Source: Neolewinella litorea (GTDB taxonomy: Bacteria > Bacteroidota > Bacteroidia > Chitinophagales > Saprospiraceae). Taken from it: DNA of 64,000 nucleotides. Position numbers and translations under genes: made by a program. Of this stretch, positions 1 through 9,555 are shown in pieces. The stretch is from NCBI RefSeq assembly GCF_004803465.1, contig NZ_SRSF01000002.1, forward strand, positions 1-64,000, written 5' to 3'. The notes under the pieces were generated by a model. The model saw nothing but the letters and a program-made list of their open reading frames with translations. It was not told where the DNA came from and searched no databases. Every line of letters starts with the position of its first letter. The stretch's first letter is position 1.

Positions 1-136
1 CTTCGGCCCGCCGTTTGTACTCGCGCACCGTGTTTTTGGACACGCCCAGGCGGGCGGCGGTGGCCTTGATAGAACCCAGCTGGTGCAGGGTCTGGAGAAT
101 GCGTCTGATCTGGTCCATGCGCTTGATTGTAGCCAC
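1..136 (-). CDS. istA: IS21-type transposase IstA, N-terminal fragment (continues beyond window)
   Basis: Reading on the minus strand from GTG at 136 (or ATG at 118), about 45 codons are open to the window edge. They encode a helix-turn-helix with the core KATAARLGVSKNTVREYKRR, which matches the N-terminal DNA-binding HTH of IstA transposases: recognition helix VSKNTV followed by basic residues. The catalytic DDE domain is not in the window. The coding start sits about 55 bases inside the last of the tandem end repeats, as expected for istA, which is transcribed inward from its own IS end. The GTG start is a guess; ATG 118 is equally possible. Confidence 0.7.
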   Translation of the reverse strand, partial: MATIKRMDQIRRILQTLHQLGSIKATAARLGVSKNTVREYKRRAE

Positions 137-189
137 GACGGGAGCGGTTGGTGATCGCTCAAGGTGGCAAAGCGCGCGGCTATCCGCCA

Positions 190-291
190 GGGGGTCAGAC
201 CTCCGGAATGTTTTCCACATTCTGGGGGGTCAAAGCTCCGGAATCAGGGGGTCAAAGGTTTTCGGAATAGGGGGGTCAGACCGATCGGAAT
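190..291. repeat. Four tandem IS21 end repeats
   Basis: Four copies of a 20-22 bp unit, each with a GGGGGTCA core and a CGGAAT end, at 190-209, 224-244, 247-268 and 270-291. Multiple internal repeats near each terminus are characteristic of IS21-family elements and serve as transposase-binding sites in that family. Binding here is inferred. Confidence 0.75.
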
Positions 292-292
292 A

Positions 293-406
293 TCCAGCGT
301 ACACCGCGTCGCTCTCGTGTTCCATCCGGAGTTCGTGGGCGTGCAGCCACAACTGCCGGTGACAGACGTGGTAGAGATTAATTAGCGTCGCGTTGATCGG
401 TCGCAT
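293..406 (-). pseudogene. cas4: cas4, N-terminal fragment truncated by IS21 insertion
   Basis: On the minus strand from ATG 406 the first ~38 codons read MRPINATLINLYHVCHRQLW and onward to VYAG. This matches the N-terminus of Cas4 exonucleases: the INATLINYY-like start, the first iron-sulfur cysteine in CHRxLWL, and the MEHESDxVY segment. At about 292 the frame runs into IS21 repeats, so the remaining ~130-150 residues, including the RecB-type nuclease core and the C-terminal cysteine cluster, are missing. An in-frame TGA upstream rules out an earlier ATG. The gene sits 96 bp after cas3 in the same direction, the usual place for cas4 in type I-B operons. The rest of cas4, and perhaps cas1, cas2 and the array, may lie beyond the IS. 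Confidence 0.8.
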
Positions 407-502: not shown

Positions 503-3319
503 TTACATAATATTGTTGATTCCTCGGTCGAACTTATCCTGATCCAGCCCATCGGTGAGGCTATAAACTTCTCGGAAGTGTTGTAGATAATGGTAGCCGT
601 AAGCGCTTTTGTCAGTGTCGCAGAACTGAACTAGATGAAATAGCAACTCCTTAGTACTCATCAGGCTGAAGCTGAAGCGGCTCAGGATAGCGGCCATTCG
701 GCGGTAGTTATTCTGGTCGCGGATGAAGTCCCGCTTGCGCTTTTCGTCTTCCACTTCGGGGGGGTGAATGACGTTCAAGTAGGCTGTAAACACCTCCCCC
801 CCGTCCAGAGTATCGCCCGTTACATCCACCCCGAGCCCACCGAGAAAACTGAGCTCATCGGGGGTGAACAATAGATCGATGGAATCCGCCGTACTGCCTG
901 GCACCGCAAATGGAATCCGCAACGGCACGAACACCGTCTCGTTACGGCCCTCGATGAGCTGGAACTCTTCGTGCGCCTTCACAAAATCCAATTCCTGCAA
1001 GTGCCGTTCGTAGGTGATGATGTCCTTCAGCCCGGGTGTGTCTTCGAGGCCGTTGATGAAGCCAAAAACGTGCTTGTACAATTCATTAAATGACTTATCT
1101 CGTAGTAGCGACTTGTGCAACTCCTGGTGGTTCAAAGAGTCCTGGTTCCGCTTCTTAGCAAGGTGTTGGTATCGAAAGTCATTACCATAGATCACTTTTG
1201 GATCGTCACCGCTATAAAAAAGCCACAAGCGACAGCCCTCCTTTTTCACGTTGCGGTTGACGCGCCCTGCCAGCTGCTCGTCGCTGTCCGGCAAACTGAC
1301 GTGCTTAAAGCCGATGTCCATATCTAAATCGACACCCGCCTCGACGACCTGCGTGGTGATGAGTAGCACCCTACACAACCGCGTCTCGGCCCGCTTCAAG
1401 CGGTTAATGATCAGCCGCCGCTGCGGTTCCAAGATCGTCCCGGAAAGCAGGTGTACTTCATCAAAATAATCATCCTGGGCAAACAGGCGCTGGAATTGCG
1501 CTGCCGACAGCTTAAAGATGAACTCGACGATGACGAATACCCCTCTTTGGTTCGTACCCCGCCGGTAATTCTCGGCCTGCTCCCGCACGTGGCCGCTGAG
1601 GTCCTCCAAACTGATCGTCCGCCGGTTACCCCGCTCATCGTACAGTAGATCAAACTCAAATTGCACCCGCCCGGCAAAATTCGGGTTGCGCAGGTAGCGC
1701 TGAGCATCCGAGATCAGTTCGCGGAAACTATACGTTCCTCGGACCTCGCGGGGCAGTAAGGCATCCAACTTCGGTAACGTTGCGCTCATGATGACGAAGC
1801 GGCAGTTGAAGTGCCGGCCGAGGTGGTCCAGGTAGCGTGCCACCTTCGCCCAGTGCTTCGGGTCGTAAGCCTGTAGTTCGTCCAGAATCACGACCGAACC
1901 GGCCAACCGGTGGTAGACGTAGTTCGGCTCCTTCCAGTGGGTCGTCAGCCAGTTAAAAAAACGGACGTGTGTAACCAGCGCGACCGGGAAGTGGAAGAAC
2001 AGATAGCGCAGGTGATCTTCCCGCTCGCTGCCGTAGGTGGCGTCCACCTCCGTGCGCTCGCGTTCCTCTTTCACACTTTGGTAGGAGGCCTTTCCGTGAA
2101 TCTCAGCTACTTCGTGGGCTTCCAGACCGTAGACCTCTTTGAGTGCCCCCAGGGTTTGGGTGGCCAAAGTCGTGAAGGGAAAAACGTAGAGTAATTTGTT
2201 CAGGGTAGGATCCCGTTCGAGTAGCCGGGCGGCCACGAGCATGGAGATGTTCGTCTTGCCCCCGCCCGTCGGGGCTTCGAGGTAGTAGATACGATCGTCG
2301 GGGTAGCGGTCGAGTGTCCGTAGTGCCTCGACGGCCATTTCCTTGCGCAGCAGGTTCAGGTTGTCGTTCGTCCGTGCGGTGGGGAAGGTCAACTCGAAAT
2401 CTAGGTCCGCCGCTGCGGCGAAGATGGCGGCGTTGTAGTCGACGGAAGATTTGGCCTTGTCCACGATTTTTTGCCGCAGCGTGTCACCGATGACGCCGAA
2501 GTCGTCGAGCGGTGTTTGGTTCATGTAATCGCTGGTCGCCAGGTAATCCGAGGCCGTCAGCAGACTGAAATTGAGCTTGATAAGGGAGTGGAGGGCATAG
2601 GGGGCGGGGTTGGCCAATTCAACTAGCTTAAGTACTGTTCCTGTCCATTTATCCCAGCGATTTACTGGCAATGGTGTGGGATCAAAACCGTACAACTCAA
2701 TAAAGTACTTTACCTGGTTAAACCATTGCGGTTGGTACCACTCCTGCATCTTACGCTTCCCATAATCAGCCAGCTCAAACTGTCCTTTTGCGTGATGCTG
2801 GCAGATGGAATACGACAGCCCAAAAGTCAGCTGCATCAATAGGCTTTTCACCTCCCGTTCCGGTTGTCCAAAGGCGTGCGGCAAAAAATAGTGGACGTAC
2901 AGAAACGCACCCAGTTCGCTGTGTCCCTTCGAAGGGTAGAAAGGCACGGGATGCTCCCCACCGGGCCATTCCAAGTTGCTGAGCGACTGCCTCTGATAAT
3001 TGGGATTCGTCTTACCGAAGTCGTGAAATGCGAGGGCGGCGACGAAGAGTTTCTTAATGTGTGAACCCACTTCAGTGAACCGCTCGGGCGATAAACCATA
3101 GGAGGCTAAAAGTGTGGTGATCAAGTTGTCCACAACCGCTTCCAGATCGTGCGCCTTTGCCAAGTGGCCAAAGTATTTATGGACCAGACGCACATGGTCG
3201 GTCAGCGTTTCGTCCTTGACGTTTGCGCGCTGCGAAGTATGACCCAGGTACGTAGGGGTAGCCGCCGTAGCTGGAAGCAAGTCTTCCAACTCGGGAATAA
3301 TTTCCACAAAAGTTATCAT
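503..3319 (-). CDS. cas3: CRISPR-associated helicase/nuclease Cas3
   Basis: 938 residues, full length for a fused HD-nuclease/SF2-helicase Cas3, which unwinds and degrades DNA bound by Cascade. The HD domain is N-terminal, with candidate metal ligands H42, H99-D100 (FHDFGK), H133 and H175/H176. The helicase shows Walker A TGGGKT (351-356), the DEAH-box variant DELQ (480-483), SAT (512-514), then TTQVVEAGVDLD and a motif VI-like QLAGRVNRN. It is the last intact gene of the operon, one base after cas5. No frameshift or missing motif is visible, so interference could still work if crRNAs are supplied. Confidence 0.95.
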   Translation of the reverse strand: MITFVEIIPELEDLLPATAATPTYLGHTSQRANVKDETLTDHVRLVHKYFGHLAKAHDLEAVVDNLITTLLASYGLSPERFTEVGSHIKKLFVAALAFHDFGKTNPNYQRQSLSNLEWPGGEHPVPFYPSKGHSELGAFLYVHYFLPHAFGQPEREVKSLLMQLTFGLSYSICQHHAKGQFELADYGKRKMQEWYQPQWFNQVKYFIELYGFDPTPLPVNRWDKWTGTVLKLVELANPAPYALHSLIKLNFSLLTASDYLATSDYMNQTPLDDFGVIGDTLRQKIVDKAKSSVDYNAAIFAAAADLDFELTFPTARTNDNLNLLRKEMAVEALRTLDRYPDDRIYYLEAPTGGGKTNISMLVAARLLERDPTLNKLLYVFPFTTLATQTLGALKEVYGLEAHEVAEIHGKASYQSVKEERERTEVDATYGSEREDHLRYLFFHFPVALVTHVRFFNWLTTHWKEPNYVYHRLAGSVVILDELQAYDPKHWAKVARYLDHLGRHFNCRFVIMSATLPKLDALLPREVRGTYSFRELISDAQRYLRNPNFAGRVQFEFDLLYDERGNRRTISLEDLSGHVREQAENYRRGTNQRGVFVIVEFIFKLSAAQFQRLFAQDDYFDEVHLLSGTILEPQRRLIINRLKRAETRLCRVLLITTQVVEAGVDLDMDIGFKHVSLPDSDEQLAGRVNRNVKKEGCRLWLFYSGDDPKVIYGNDFRYQHLAKKRNQDSLNHQELHKSLLRDKSFNELYKHVFGFINGLEDTPGLKDIITYERHLQELDFVKAHEEFQLIEGRNETVFVPLRIPFAVPGSTADSIDLLFTPDELSFLGGLGVDVTGDTLDGGEVFTAYLNVIHPPEVEDEKRKRDFIRDQNNYRRMAAILSRFSFSLMSTKELLFHLVQFCDTDKSAYGYHYLQHFREVYSLTDGLDQDKFDRGINNIM

Positions 3320-3320
3320 A

Positions 3321-4115
3321 CTAGTTTAGTTGTACGATCCGTCCGTCGCTGAGATGAAACAGGTTCATCAAGTGCGCATCTGAGCCCCAGGTGAAGCTGG
3401 TGTAAACGTGTTGCCGTAGCCGGTACTGCCAAAGATCTTCGCGATATTCGGTCGGCAACTCTTCGACATAATAAAACGGTATTTCGTCACTGAAAAAGTC
3501 ATCCCCGGAGTCCAGCCGAGGAAAGCCACCATCCGGTTCGCGCACCAGCGTGGCTACCCGGTAAGGTTCCGTCGCGGTAAACGCTGTAGCGGCGTGCCGC
3601 ACCGTCTCCTCCGCCAGCCACCCGGCGGCGAATTCATTCTTACCGAAGTAGGGCAAAAATTCGGCCCGGCCCGTCATGAGCCGTTCGCCAAGTTCGGCTT
3701 GCAACCCGTCTTCGTCATCAATCAGCACGTAGCAGGTAAAGGCGGGTCCGACTGTCATCTGCTCCTTCAGAATCCAGTTGCCGCCCTGTTCCTGGCTGGC
3801 GTAGCCGACGCCGTTGTTGTACTCGACGGTGGCCGTAGCCCAGGCGGCGGGATTGGGGTCGGCCGGTGCTTGCGTGACGGGATGGGGCGCGGACGCGGGT
3901 GCAATGCCGATAGGTAAGGAGCCGAGCTTGTCCAAGTACTCCGGGCGCCGTCCCTTCTTCCGAAATCCATCCAGGCCTAGGATAGCCCCCAGGATACCGA
4001 GTAGAGCGGGCCGGTGCAGCATCCCGTAGCCGAAGACGATCCCATCGTTCGTATCCGGTTTACGGAAGAAGCCAAAGTCGGCCCGCAGGGTGAATTCAAT
4101 AATCGAGCGGGCCAT
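3321..4115 (-). CDS. cas5: Cas5, type I-B-like Cascade subunit
   Basis: 264 residues. The start MARSIIEFTLRADFGFFRKP followed by a GYGMLHRPALLGILGAILGL segment is typical of type I-B Cas5 proteins, where the RAMP-fold N-terminus is followed by a proline and glycine-rich helix that fixes the crRNA 5' handle. The gene is two bases after cas7 and one base before cas3, so translation is probably coupled. Subtype I-B is assigned from neighbours and from these motifs. No catalytic residue is expected, since Cas6 is a separate gene here. Confidence 0.88.
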   Translation of the reverse strand: MARSIIEFTLRADFGFFRKPDTNDGIVFGYGMLHRPALLGILGAILGLDGFRKKGRRPEYLDKLGSLPIGIAPASAPHPVTQAPADPNPAAWATATVEYNNGVGYASQEQGGNWILKEQMTVGPAFTCYVLIDDEDGLQAELGERLMTGRAEFLPYFGKNEFAAGWLAEETVRHAATAFTATEPYRVATLVREPDGGFPRLDSGDDFFSDEIPFYYVEELPTEYREDLWQYRLRQHVYTSFTWGSDAHLMNLFHLSDGRIVQLN

Positions 4116-4117
4116 GC

Positions 4118-5041
4118 TTAAATCAGGTTCTTTAGCTCCGCCCCGGCCGGTAGGTTGATGACCGCAGTGCTGGGCTCATGGTAAACCTCCACACGCTCGA
4201 TGGCGTCCTTAATGCCTTCCCGCGCCAGGAGGTCCGTTACCAGTTGTAGGTCGATCGTCTCGTCATCGCTTACTTGCACGAGCTCGACGAAGCTGGGTAG
4301 GACGAGTTGGGATTTGTCCTTCAGGGTTACCCAGAGCAACAGCGCCGTTTCCGTACCGCTCTTCGCCGTGCTGTCGTAATAAGTCGGCCCCTTACGAACG
4401 CCTTCCTTGATCTTTTCGACGTCCTCCCCGGTCAGCCCGGTCGCGCCGATGCCGTCAAGTTGGTAGTGCGCCGTAAGGTTGCTGGGGTTCAGACTGAGGT
4501 GGTGGGCGTAGTAGGCGCGGTCGATTTTGTATTGGGTGCCGAGGGTTGTTTGTTCCTTCTTATTCTTACCTTCTTCGTTATTTGCAAATGGCGAGCCAAT
4601 TTGTTCCGCATACACCTCACTAACTGGGTAGCGGTTTAGCCCATGACTTATTTGCAATGGCCCATGCAGGCTCATGCTCACCCCGTTCTTACTCGCAAAT
4701 GTTGCTCCGAACGTTCTGACATCGAGGCAGTCTAGAAGATTTTTGATAACCTCGGTTTTAGAAGTCTTCTTCTCAATTTTTGAGAATTTATGTTCATAGC
4801 TATCGTCTAATCCAAAAGGTTTGAGATTGTCATCGTAACGCTTCCAGTATAGCACATAGTCGCGCTCACCGGTTAGATGTTGCACCCAGTGGTTGCGGAT
4901 CAGATACTTCAGTGCCTTGTCTGTCGCGTAAGCCGTGCCATCGGGGAGAGTGCGCGGTCGGTGACTGAAGTCGGCATTGTAATTGGAGTTGACGGCTTTG
5001 ATAATGGCGCAGCCATAGGCGCGTTGGGAATATTGGTTCAT
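4118..5041 (-). CDS. cas7: Cas7, type I-B (Csh2-like) backbone subunit
   Basis: 307 residues. The segment DVRTFGATFA followed by SMSLHGPLQISHGLNRYP is the hallmark of the DevR/Csh2-type Cas7 RAMP proteins, which coat the crRNA as a helical filament. The N-terminus (RAYGCAIIKAVNSNYNADF) and the conserved TDKALKYLIRNHW stretch fit the same family. It lies 21 bases after the cas8-like gene and overlaps nothing. Length is normal for the family (about 290-320). Confidence 0.9.
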   Translation of the reverse strand: MNQYSQRAYGCAIIKAVNSNYNADFSHRPRTLPDGTAYATDKALKYLIRNHWVQHLTGERDYVLYWKRYDDNLKPFGLDDSYEHKFSKIEKKTSKTEVIKNLLDCLDVRTFGATFASKNGVSMSLHGPLQISHGLNRYPVSEVYAEQIGSPFANNEEGKNKKEQTTLGTQYKIDRAYYAHHLSLNPSNLTAHYQLDGIGATGLTGEDVEKIKEGVRKGPTYYDSTAKSGTETALLLWVTLKDKSQLVLPSFVELVQVSDDETIDLQLVTDLLAREGIKDAIERVEVYHEPSTAVINLPAGAELKNLI

Positions 5042-5062: not shown

Positions 5063-7051
5063 TTATACTTCGGTAGTCAAGGTATCGCTTGCGTTTAGTA
5101 GTCGGTCTTGTTTACGGGCATAGTTGAAGTAACCGGACATTAGCAGCAATTGATTTACTTCATCATCGTTAGCATTTCCAAAGGCAGTTATTTCACCTAC
5201 CGCAACCTTGAAACGATTACTTTTATGAATGTGACCATATTGGTTCACGAGTTCAAAAAGTGCTTTGGCAAGTTTCTCCGCTGTTCTTATTCGAGTAAAC
5301 CGTACGAACTCGCTGTGCGGAATATTATCCGTCTGCATTTTGCCAAAGATGTACCGGATAGCTTGCCCCACCAAATAGGAAAACTCATCAGTATTTTCCA
5401 GATGAACCGGCTCGTGGTCATTCGATCGATCGACAACGCGCCGAAGCCGATCAGGTAGCTCGCGGATTGTTTGCTTCATAGTATTGGATGTTTGGTAGTC
5501 TCCATCAAAATGCGAAAAGAGACTAATTAAAATGTTTAGTTTGAGACGAATTTCAGCTTCTACTATTGTAGGATATGAAGCCGAACCATGTTGGTTAATC
5601 GAATACCGAATACTCGCTTGCATGATCTTCCGGAAAGCCGCTGCGGAGATCTGCCCCCGCTGCCCTTTATAGATGAAGTCGTAAAAACCCTGCCGGTAGG
5701 CCGCCACGGAGGCCATCACGCCGTCTTTCCCCGCCTTATTACTGAGTTCCGAAAACCACCGGCGGTCGACGATCTTGCGAAAGGCCTCCTTGCCTTTGCC
5801 GGGGGTAATCTTTACGATTAATTCATTGTCAAAAATGACCGGCAATAAATTGTCCTCCAGATCAAAAACGTTATTCAGCGGGCCGTAGCGGAAGCCCGTT
5901 CCTCCCTCTCCGGTTTGCGTCTCGGGCAGCAGGGGCTCGATACGCCAACCGGAATGGGAATCCGTGGTCAGCTCGTGGGAGTAGCGCGCCACCCGACCCC
6001 AGTCGAGGATCATTCCCCCAACGTAGTAAAACAAGACAAACTGCGCACGCCGCTCCGCCCCGAGTTTGAGGATGGATTTAATGACGTCCCGGTGTCGGTC
6101 GTCGCTTTTCTTACCGTACTCGCGTTGGACGAGCTCATCAAACTTCCGGTTCAGCGTTTCGGCCTGAGGGCCAACGAAGACTGGCAGCGGATTAGGAAAA
6201 ATTCCTCGATTCATCAACTCTTTAAACTGAATCAAAAGCACCGCATCATATACATCCACTTTTTTCCCTAAAGTCATGGGTGCCGTGATGTGCTTCAAGA
6301 AGGCTTTGTTATCGTTATAGGAGTTATATAGCGCTGGCGGTCCGATGTTATTCATTAGATTGTCCGTGACAGTCTCCACCAAATGGTCAGCAACAAAACC
6401 TTTTATAGAGATATATGACAGGTACGATTCTTCCAAATCGGATAACTCAACACCTAAATAAAATATAACATAGTCTTCATCGTATACAGATTGATATGCA
6501 TCCAAACTTTCAAGGAAGTCAATTAAGTTTTTTTCATCTTTTAAAAAATTCTCAAAAACTTCAACTTCTTGTTTCAACACATGGGACATATGTGTTTTAG
6601 CGGCTGAAAAAAAGTTGTCAAATCTATCAAAAATAGTGCGCTTGCTTTTTTCGTACTTGTAGCCTGAAATTTTCGTTTTCCCTCTGCCCGAAGGTTTTTT
6701 ACACGGTAGCGATTTTCGCTTGACTGCAAGTGTGTAAGGGGATATTGAAGACACCCCCTTTGTTGGACAGTCATATGATTTATTCATATCATTCTTCTTG
6801 CCCAGGTCTGGAAACCAAGAAAGCTGTCTTCTTATCTCGCAGTCCTGCATGAAGTCCGAAACCTTCGTGCCGGAGCGATACAACTCAAACTCAACTTCAT
6901 CTCGACGCCACTTTTTAAATGGTGATCTTCCTTCAGAATTCCTGACTAGAGGCAGTTTGATGTGCAATCCGGGTTTTGGTTTTATACCTAGGGTCTTTAT
7001 ATCTGGACTACCCAGTTGTCGTCTTGTAAATCTAGTTAGTTGCTCTATCAT
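5063..7051 (-). CDS. cas8b: Cas8b-like large subunit of type I-B Cascade
   Basis: 662 residues. The large subunit varies greatly between systems and few motifs can be named from sequence. The call rests on size, on position directly before cas7-cas5-cas3, and on general resemblance to Csh1/TM1802-type proteins (N-terminal segment to about residue 150 with scattered cysteines, then a long mostly helical region). Its role would be PAM recognition and Cas3 recruitment. The stretch at ~6280-6780 (residues ~90-260) is more AT-rich than the rest of the operon. The start ATG at 7051 is 43 bases after the WYL regulator stop. Confidence 0.72.
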   Translation of the reverse strand: MIEQLTRFTRRQLGSPDIKTLGIKPKPGLHIKLPLVRNSEGRSPFKKWRRDEVEFELYRSGTKVSDFMQDCEIRRQLSWFPDLGKKNDMNKSYDCPTKGVSSISPYTLAVKRKSLPCKKPSGRGKTKISGYKYEKSKRTIFDRFDNFFSAAKTHMSHVLKQEVEVFENFLKDEKNLIDFLESLDAYQSVYDEDYVIFYLGVELSDLEESYLSYISIKGFVADHLVETVTDNLMNNIGPPALYNSYNDNKAFLKHITAPMTLGKKVDVYDAVLLIQFKELMNRGIFPNPLPVFVGPQAETLNRKFDELVQREYGKKSDDRHRDVIKSILKLGAERRAQFVLFYYVGGMILDWGRVARYSHELTTDSHSGWRIEPLLPETQTGEGGTGFRYGPLNNVFDLEDNLLPVIFDNELIVKITPGKGKEAFRKIVDRRWFSELSNKAGKDGVMASVAAYRQGFYDFIYKGQRGQISAAAFRKIMQASIRYSINQHGSASYPTIVEAEIRLKLNILISLFSHFDGDYQTSNTMKQTIRELPDRLRRVVDRSNDHEPVHLENTDEFSYLVGQAIRYIFGKMQTDNIPHSEFVRFTRIRTAEKLAKALFELVNQYGHIHKSNRFKVAVGEITAFGNANDDEVNQLLLMSGYFNYARKQDRLLNASDTLTTEV

Positions 7052-7094: not shown

Positions 7095-8036
7095 CTACTG
7101 CCCTCCCCCTAAATTCCCCAAAAATTTCTCCCCCGCCAACCGCAAATGCTCCACCAATTCCTGGGGCTCAACGACCTCGGTAACCTGGTGGTAATTGCCC
7201 ATCACGAAGTTCGTTAACCCGATAAAGCGGTGGTTGACGCGAGCCTCGAACACGTATTCGTCCGCGGTATCCCCGCTGGGCGTGAGGTAGGCTTTGGACA
7301 GGGGGAACTGCTCCACTAAAGCATTGTAGCCACCTACTTTCAGGCGCAGGTACACCGGAACGGTCCGGTTATCCACCACCCGGAACACGTCGCTGGTGTG
7401 TACGTGGTGCTTACCGGCGTTCGCCCAGGCCCGGTCGGTAGTCTCAACGCGGGCGAAGCGGGTCATCTTGAAGTGCCGGATGGCGTTCCGGTCCAGGTCG
7501 TAGGCGTGCAGTAAATCTTCCGAGGGTTCCAGGTGAAAGGGTTCGACGCTGCGGTCCATAACTTGGTCGGAGTTACTGGAACGGTAATCCCGCAGGATGA
7601 CAACGCGCTCGTCGACAATCGCCGTTTTTAAGGCCTCGACCTTGGTAAGGTAGGGGGCGCCCAGGTAGGCGTGGCCTAGTTTGCGGTAGTCGTACAGCGA
7701 CGCAAGCTTCTTCTTCAGGCGCTCCGCCCGCTTCCCGTTACGGTCGATCTGGTCGATGGCGGCGTAGAGTAGCTGCTGGTCCTCCGGCCCGAAGTGCAGC
7801 AGGTCGCGCAGTTGGCGGTAAGGCTGATTAATCCGAAAGTGGTAACGGTAGCGATTGTCCTGTTCGAGGATGAACCCGGCATTGCGAATGGCGATTACGT
7901 CGCGTTTGATGGTGTCCTCGGACACGTCAAACTGCCCCGCCAATTGACGCTTGGTCAGTCCGTGAGGGCGGTCCAGCAGCGCGACGAGCATCCTGAGGAT
8001 ACGCAAGCGCGTACCATGGTCGTGAGGGACGTTCAT
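7095..8036 (-). CDS. WYL-domain transcriptional regulator inside the cas operon
   Basis: 313 residues. The N-terminal ~60 residues form a DeoR-type winged helix (LTKRQLAGQFDVSEDTIKRDV), followed by a WYL domain (YRSSNSDQVMDRSVEPFHLE, then LLHAYDLDRNAIRHFKMTR) and a C-terminal WCX-like region. WYL regulators are ligand-sensing, with nucleic acids and nucleotides among known or proposed ligands, and are recurrently linked to CRISPR-Cas loci. It sits between cas6 (6 bases upstream) and the cas8-like gene, so it is co-expressed with the effector and probably autoregulates the operon. A palindrome 66-81 bases upstream of cas6 is a candidate binding site. Confidence 0.9.
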   Translation of the reverse strand: MNVPHDHGTRLRILRMLVALLDRPHGLTKRQLAGQFDVSEDTIKRDVIAIRNAGFILEQDNRYRYHFRINQPYRQLRDLLHFGPEDQQLLYAAIDQIDRNGKRAERLKKKLASLYDYRKLGHAYLGAPYLTKVEALKTAIVDERVVILRDYRSSNSDQVMDRSVEPFHLEPSEDLLHAYDLDRNAIRHFKMTRFARVETTDRAWANAGKHHVHTSDVFRVVDNRTVPVYLRLKVGGYNALVEQFPLSKAYLTPSGDTADEYVFEARVNHRFIGLTNFVMGNYHQVTEVVEPQELVEHLRLAGEKFLGNLGGGQ

Positions 8037-8042
8037 AATTAC

Positions 8043-8852
8043 TCAAATTTTCTTGCCTAACCCAAACCCCTGCGCATTCTGCCCGCCCCAGCCTACGGTA
8101 TACCCTAAATACTGAATAGTAGGAGGCGCGGTAAGTTCGAAGTCATATTGGTAACCAATAATACGTGTCTCGCCGGGGCGCCCCTTCTTAATGATTCGGG
8201 GTTTACGCCGTACATTGGAAGGTGGTGTTAATAGACGAAAAGCTATTTGTGAATCACCTATGTCATCGACCAATCCGTGTTCAGTTGCCGCTCGGTACTT
8301 ACGTTTCAGATTTTTGATAAAGTAATGGGTATATTCTTCATGAGTGGGTGACAAGTGGTCACTAGATAATCGCTCATCCCCCCCTTCTACGGGTTTACTG
8401 ACATAGACAGGTGTGATCAATCTGAACCTAGCACTGGGACTGTCAAAATTAACTTCTGGAAGCACCTCCACACCCGTTACTTTCAAGTCTAATACACCAT
8501 CTTCATTACCTATGCCGAACTGACTGTTCATGAAGGCACCAACTATAAAGTACTGTGCCGCACGATCAAGTAGGAATGATACTTCAAAACTTACTTTGCG
8601 GGCAAATACCTGAATACGGTGGCCTGAGAATTTCGACCACTTCTTTGGAACGTACAGATTAGAAAAGCAGAAGAATCGGAATACTTTATTAGGTTCACCA
8701 TCAAAGGAAAATCCCCGCTCATGAAGCATTTGCGCAAATTCAGGGTCAGCATCCGCTAGTCTATGGTAGATATAGCTACTCAGCTCATATTGATGATTGA
8801 GAGAAATATACTGACCAGGTCGAAGTACATCACAGGTGATTTTTAAACGCAT
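8043..8852 (-). CDS. cas6: Cas6 crRNA-processing endoribonuclease
   Basis: 269 residues. The protein begins with a RAMP strand (MRLKITCDV) followed by NHQYELSSYIYHRL and ends in the glycine-rich loop GWGGQNAQGFGLGKKI that defines Cas6. It would cut pre-crRNA within the repeats and, in type I-B, may stay on the 3' hairpin. A catalytic histidine is plausible at the NHQYELSS or YIYHRL segment but cannot be fixed by eye. This is the first gene of the operon. It is intact although no array is in the window. Confidence 0.92.
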   Translation of the reverse strand: MRLKITCDVLRPGQYISLNHQYELSSYIYHRLADADPEFAQMLHERGFSFDGEPNKVFRFFCFSNLYVPKKWSKFSGHRIQVFARKVSFEVSFLLDRAAQYFIVGAFMNSQFGIGNEDGVLDLKVTGVEVLPEVNFDSPSARFRLITPVYVSKPVEGGDERLSSDHLSPTHEEYTHYFIKNLKRKYRAATEHGLVDDIGDSQIAFRLLTPPSNVRRKPRIIKKGRPGETRIIGYQYDFELTAPPTIQYLGYTVGWGGQNAQGFGLGKKI

Positions 8853-9137: not shown

Positions 9138-9555
9138 TTAGGCGGCGTTTCGGTACCGCTGGATAGGTTTTACTCGGTCGATCCCCTGGTGATCCCGGTG
9201 GTGGAAGCGATGCAGCCACTCCTCGATTCACTGGTAAAGCTGGCGGCCGGCGTCGGCCGGATTCAGGAAGATATGTTAATAATTAATTGCACCCCAGAAG
9301 CGCTCGATATAGACCTTGTCCAGCGCTCTCCCCTTTCCGTACATGCTGATGGCGATGCCCTGCTCTTTAAGATAATTGACGTATTCTGTACAGGTAAACT
9401 GGCTGCCCTGTTCGTAGTTCAGGATCTCGGGGGTGCCGTGCTCGGCTACCGTCTGGCGGATCACCCACAGGCTTGCTTCCGCCGCCAGGTTGTTCGCCAA
9501 TCCCCAGATCACGATATAGCGCAAATTCACGTCGATAATGGCCGTCAGTCCTGGC
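9138..9555 (-). pseudogene. IS3-family transposase (OrfB) C-terminal remnant
   Basis: The minus-strand frame reads LTAIIDVNLRYIVIWG, then EQGSQFTCTEYVNYLKEQGI, then MYGKGRALDKVYIERFWGAI, which are the DDE-core landmarks of IS3/IS150-type integrases (second Asp region, here DQGSQF has become EQGSQF, and the final Glu in YIERFW). In-frame stops occur at 9276-9278 and again after LYQ, and reading through them restores the family C-terminus (IFLNPADAG, HRDHQGIDRVKP) up to the stop at 9138-9140. The N-terminal half is missing, replaced by a recombinase remnant near 9555. Non-functional. Confidence 0.8.

Follow-up and report, generated by a model that had tools for sequence, protein, structure and literature searches.

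The window, a stretch of 64,000 nucleotides, is bases 1-64000 of contig C12 of the Neolewinella litorea genome, which is assembled in 39 contigs (4.40 Mb). On its minus strand lies an open type I-B CRISPR operon that reads cas6, a WYL-domain regulator, cas8b, cas7, cas5, cas3 and then the start of cas4. In this order, and all on the minus strand, the window holds cas6 at 8043..8852 (PF01881, 72.3 bits), the regulator within the operon at 7095..8036 (PF13280, 36.1 bits), cas8b at 5063..7051 (PADLOC Cas8b, 184.1 bits; matched by no Pfam or NCBIfam model), cas7b at 4118..5041 (PF05107, 129.7 bits), cas5b at 3321..4115 (NCBIfam TIGR02592, 88.4 bits, under its cut-off of 97) and cas3 at 503..3319 (PADLOC Cas3b, 685.8 bits). 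The Pfam, NCBIfam and PADLOC matches bear out an earlier, sequence-only reading of this DNA, which had proposed a type I-B operon with open interference reading frames. Directly beyond cas6, at window positions 9276-9530, stands the remnant of an integrase-core transposase (PF00665, 30.0 bits, under the cut-off of 32.6).

An IS21-family end within cas4

The 5' part of cas4 occupies positions 297..406 of the minus strand and comprises 36 codons and 2 nt, including a cysteine at residue 15. The match of PF01930 to window positions 293-406 on this strand (32.4 bits, cut-off 22.7, E 1.2e-7, profile positions 2-34 of 160) is well beyond chance, confirming that the fragment is cas4 as had been read; no NCBIfam model matched the 5' piece alone. 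Comparison of three IS ends sets its boundary: the flanks of contigs C12, C4 and C1 diverge before TGGATATTCC (cas4 sense), placing the first IS base at window position 296 and the insertion site in codon 37. The sequence-only reading had counted 38 cas4 codons and let the element begin at about 292. The element is indeed there, with its exact start four bases off, and native cas4 is a little over one codon shorter than claimed.

Positions 1..296 of the minus strand are the left end of an IS21-family element that runs off the contig. It holds a putative N-terminal part of istA, pointing in the same direction as the cas operon (2..220, minus strand, with a provisional start), of which 73 residues are present; their helix-turn-helix matches PF13384 at 23.2 bits, just under the cut-off of 24.6. 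Four spaced GGGGGTCA..CGGAAT units lie at about 190-292, placed by eye, three of them also grouped computationally. The ends of the element are TGGATATTCC.../...GGAATACGCA. IS21-family elements carry several repeats within their ends and produce target duplications of 4-8 bp. We find istB, repeats within the left end, and 6-bp duplications at two of the three end pairs in the genome; the four-repeat IS21 end that had been noticed in the window thus stands, given the four units and IstB at the partner end.

The partner end, the adaptation genes and the array

The right end of the element is found on contig C5 (locus L003), which opens with this other IS end, followed by cas4 from base 300, cas1, cas2 and a CRISPR array. 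Here IstB is represented by its C-terminus (PF01695, 64.7 bits, profile positions 174-234 of 238). Genome-wide, PF01695 detects the element's IstB only at three right ends, each time over these last 61 positions of the profile; one further match (33.6 bits) lies at another place on C1. A diverged right-end remnant (79%) lies at about 1803-1968 of L191 (contig C35) and is absent from the PF01695 matches.

The 3' piece of cas4 (C5:295-687) matches PF01930 at 115.8 bits over profile positions 33-159 (cut-off 22.7; positions 30-159 in the genome-wide search), and taken alone it scores 55.8 bits with NCBIfam TIGR00372, below the cut-off of 65. Behind it lie cas1 (L003 705-1712 plus stop; TIGR03641, 405.1 bits versus a cut-off of 304.1) and cas2 (L003 1719-1979), assigned by PADLOC as Cas1b and Cas2b, with both models matched across their whole length. 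A scan for promoters and terminators over L003 1-2200 gave 0 and 2 sites, no excess over shuffled sequences. With these genes and the array, the profile matches account for a complete type I-B set (cas6, cas8b, cas7, cas5, cas3, cas1, cas2) except for a whole cas4.

The array (L003 2191-6846) contains 71 repeats of 30 nt and 70 spacers. All 71 repeats are in the forward direction and none in reverse, the repeat is absent from the rest of the genome at up to 3 mismatches, and a reversed control returned 0. Sixty-five of the 71 are identical to the query repeat; of the six variants, five are the array's final repeats, which suggests that the leader adjoins cas2. Two pairs of spacers are similar, 28/59 (L003 4003-4038 and 6048-6085) and 61/65 (L003 6181-6217 and 6446-6483), as though the array had twice sampled one position in related invaders. 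Searches for protospacers in phage records (E 0.05) gave no match to the array, and exact scans of viral contigs with four patterns covering 6 of the 70 spacers (the pairs 28/59 and 61/65, and spacers 1 and 20) gave none either. Within the genome itself nothing convincing was found, the best matches outside the array being 21 nt long at E 0.787, and the spacers matched neither the two IS ends, nor the window, nor L003 6851-16000 at up to 7 substitutions. As no protospacers were found, no PAM can be read. Spacer length dates nothing about the insertion: the means of the leader-side and far halves, 36.06 and 36.11, are alike.

A target duplication shared by the two halves

On C12 the element is directly preceded by GTACGC in cas4 sense (window 297..302, minus strand), and the same six bases directly follow it on C5 (L003 300-305), a duplication within the 4-8 bp that had been predicted. 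When the three left ends (C12, C4, C1) are paired with the three right ends (C5, C7, C3), a common 6-nt repeat occurs in only two of the nine pairings, C12-C5 and C4-C7; the other seven, including C1-C3, have none. For a given pair, six bases in common would occur by chance about once in 4096. The left ends are identical over 292 nt and the right ends differ by one mismatch in 295 nt, which points to a recent insertion.

The sequence-only reading had also suggested that the rest of the adaptation module might be displaced beyond the IS. The remaining cas4 frame, cas1, cas2 and array do lie behind a matching IS end that is flanked by GTACGC as well; since no sequence spans the element and IstB is seen as a C-terminal part only, we infer both the length of the IS and the present-day contiguity of C12, the IS and C5, one IS apart. 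The same lack of spanning sequence, with C12 and C5 both ending inside a repeated element, is what an assembly artefact would produce, with contigs broken at the repeat and an uninterrupted cas4 in the living cell. Such a break by itself, however, would not place IS bases in cas4, and on each contig nearly 300 nt of IS stand inside the gene, bounded by the same 6-nt repeat. We regard an artefact as highly improbable.

Joining the flanks of C12 and C5 at the duplication yields a single cas4 frame of 170 codons. In its present state the frame of the 5' piece continues for 22 IS codons to a stop, and in the 3' piece the first available start is a GTG at L003 364 (residue 57), which would give 114 aa. 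The earlier reading would have been undermined by a complete cas4 elsewhere, and a PF01930 search of the whole genome at E 0.001 detects the two cas4 pieces and no further cas4. A search of PDB sequences for Cas4 at E 0.001 found no match.

Conservation of cas4 among relatives

Related cas1 loci, taken as the best 80 of 190, all have a cas4 match no more than 2 kb upstream of cas1. In 79 of these 80 cas4 is in one piece, covered from residue 6 or less to residue 164 or more; stops in two of them, at residues 166 and 168, are the gene's end. Of the 38 columns that reach at least 90% conservation in the same 80 loci, the joined N. litorea cas4 carries the consensus residue in 36. Cys15 is present in 79 of 79 relatives; Asp64, Glu75, Lys77, Gln89, Tyr93, Cys154 and Cys157 occur in all 80, and Cys163 in 79. 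Residues 64, 75, 77, 89 and 93 we take, from the known motifs, to be the Cas4 nuclease residues. The IS parts Cys15 from these five and from the cysteines at 154, 157 and 163. Cas4 proteins are described, in the available extract of the source, as combining a four-cysteine Fe-S module with nuclease motifs (PMC5704561). The DNA still encodes all four cysteines and the nuclease residues, but the IS divides them, so that no single polypeptide contains them all. Judging from these features cas4 would be a broken gene and not a working member of the Cas4 family (PF01930).

Could Cas4 function nevertheless survive, by complementation between the pieces, by frequent excision of the IS, or by the 3' piece acting alone, so that adaptation continues? 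The 3' piece retains residues 64, 75, 77, 89 and 93 and three cysteines, its GTG start would give the 114-aa product, and neither the frame nor the conserved residues have decayed further. Against this, Cys15, found in every one of the 79 relatives compared (best 80 of 190 loci), sits in the other piece, and a recent insertion would account for the intact residues just as well; we consider survival of function unlikely.

A draw of 298 genomes from the family, whose loci overlap the set of 80, contains 35 genomes (N. litorea included) with a related Cas1 at E 1e-30, for which 30 loci were returned. Of the 29 loci besides our own, 27 carry an unsplit cas4, which in four of them has a stop at residue 166; of the remaining two, L124 has cas4 in two frames and L136 has no cas4 within 1.5 kb. 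The draw lists five genomes of the same genus, none of which has a related Cas1 at E 1e-30. Such patchiness would suit a CRISPR locus that was already dead when the IS struck it. This too seems very unlikely: the other cas reading frames are open and match their families, and the repeats are exact in 65 of 71 cases, with five of the six variants at the array end.

Other copies and other split cas4 genes

The copy of the element at C4-C7 splits an mcrC-like gene (L192 6748-7797 and L193 300-626) with the 6-nt duplication GACGAG. The piece on C4 covers PF10117 positions 1-285 (210.2 bits), that on C7 positions 286-318 (24.4 bits, cut-off 23.9). The gene stands behind an McrB-like gene in a McrBC-like operon; the NCBIfam McrB and McrC models score below their cut-offs, and PADLOC gave no match for the mcrC pieces. 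McrC being a nuclease, both targets with a clear duplication, cas4 and the mcrC-like gene, probably encode defence-system nucleases; a target bias toward defence genes cannot be claimed from two sites. In the third pair neither end is in a defence gene: the C1 end (L194) lies just past a CAAX-protease-like ORF and the C3 end (L195) in a DDE transposase gene. The lack of a common repeat there is likely due to at least one rearrangement or lost end.

The 80th of the related cas1 loci, L089 of Indibacter alkaliphilus LW1, opens within an IS21-like end. The N-terminal part of its cas4 is on another contig, TGGATA ends stand on both sides (L175 1-170 reverse; L176 1-433), and the repeat AGAG is found at the same codon, residue 49 in N. 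litorea cas4 numbering; the strict end-to-end repeat is 3 nt, and 4 nt with a one-base shift. Between cas4, cas1 and cas2 of this genome are two similar-looking ORFs of 130 aa (L176 475-867 and 2018-2410), which we take to resemble four-helix-bundle proteins. In a draw of 395 genomes from the phylum, 51 (N. litorea included) match cas4. One of them, G596, has cas4 over two contigs (L172, L173) with ends TGAGCACACCGGAG/ACCGGAATACTCA and the 5-nt repeat CTAAC; the Indibacter and G596 elements are IS21-like by their end motifs only. In another, G619, cas4 stops at a contig edge with no IS end visible, and two short alignments (G575 and G355) belong to open frames of 188 and 177 aa and were counted whole. 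A draw of 395 genomes from the class gave 21 with a cas4 match, 15 of them new relative to the phylum draw and none split. The insertions lie at different sites, near residues 37 and 49 and, as judged by eye, at about 121, hence no hot spot is seen. From these comparisons, IS21-like splitting of cas4 appears to be rare but recurrent.

For cas1, none of the 61 Cas1 matches in the phylum draw at E <=1e-60 lies over two contigs; one that looked partial (G421) reads on. A further genome, G581, shows only the last third of cas1 (residues 225-336; L189 1695-2027). In G083, from the family draw, the contig breaks off at Cas1 residue 175, and no IS end can be seen there. The numbers are too small to claim an excess of IS insertions in cas4 over cas1. 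Many of the best 80 of 190 loci are unmatched by the divergent N. litorea Cas8, Cas7, Cas5 or Cas3, and for those genes no break rate is given.

Discussion

We propose, with a probability of roughly 80%, that an IS21-family element transposed into the sole cas4 of a type I-B operon, and that Cas4 was thereby lost, interference and memory being kept and uptake lost or altered. A multicopy istA-istB element would have entered codon 37 of cas4 and produced the 6-bp target duplication. No working Cas4 would then be made, because the insertion separates Cys15 from the nuclease residues and from cysteines 154, 157 and 163, the 5' piece stops in the IS, and the 3' piece is startless before residue 57. 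Interference by the 70 stored spacers would continue, whereas the uptake of new ones would be lost or deprived of PAM and orientation control. Since istAB has the same orientation, read-through from it may still transcribe cas1 and cas2. The event is probably an ordinary gene inactivation.

Cas4 controls the PAM and orientation of new spacers, as known from other subtypes. In the type I-B system of Haloarcula hispanica, according to the available part of the report, deletion of cas1, cas2, cas3 or cas4 each abolished spacer uptake, and a plasmid-borne gene restored it (PMC3936756). That cas4 deletion was deliberate, whereas here Cas4 was probably lost to a natural insertion. In Haloferax volcanii, also type I-B, spacers taken up naively under overexpression of Cas1, Cas2 and Cas4 lacked a consensus PAM, as the accessible text of the study has it (PMC7521656), so a missing PAM preference alone would not prove Cas4 loss. 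By analogy, the 70 stored spacers should still serve interference in this strain, with none being added, or with new ones added without the PAM and orientation control of Cas4; impaired acquisition, as the sequence-only reading proposed, is plausible.

The locus resembles the known Bacteroidota type I-B systems (Cas1b, Cas2b, Cas3b, Cas8b) in gene content, in Cas1b, in the 30-nt repeat and in the array beside cas2; here, however, cas4 is split by an IS. IS21 insertion in a CRISPR locus is already in print: an extract of the Xanthomonas citri study describes an ISRso19-like IS21-family element in a CRISPR array, recognised by inverted repeats at contig ends (PMC6889575), whereas here cas4 was struck. 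Bacteroides fragilis DCMOUH0017B has a 67-spacer array with cas1, cas2 and cas4 and an IS21-type transposase upstream of cas1; only these three cas genes adjoin the array, and the extract at hand states no split of cas4 (PMC5704556). Our literature search, including the accessible portions of PMC8865420, PMC5704556, PMC6889575, PMC9944170, PMC3718332 and PMC5704561, found no earlier report of an IS insertion in cas4, which does not prove that there is none.

A wider reading is that IS21-type elements repeatedly silence cas4 and other anti-invader nucleases (McrC) without loss of stored immunity. Selection would favour such a "memory-frozen" state, arising again and again, because incoming elements are spared or self-acquisition is limited. 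This reading draws on three cas4 copies in three genomes, split at three sites by IS21-like ends, and on the N. litorea element in an mcrC-like gene; we think it quite unlikely to be correct. Regardless, the N. litorea locus offers a clean natural knock-out of cas4 in a Bacteroidota type I-B system whose other cas genes are open, useful for asking whether memory is written without Cas4 and whether PAM or orientation then goes wrong. The recurrent IS21-like insertions in cas4 suggest that loss of adaptation with interference kept may be a repeated state.
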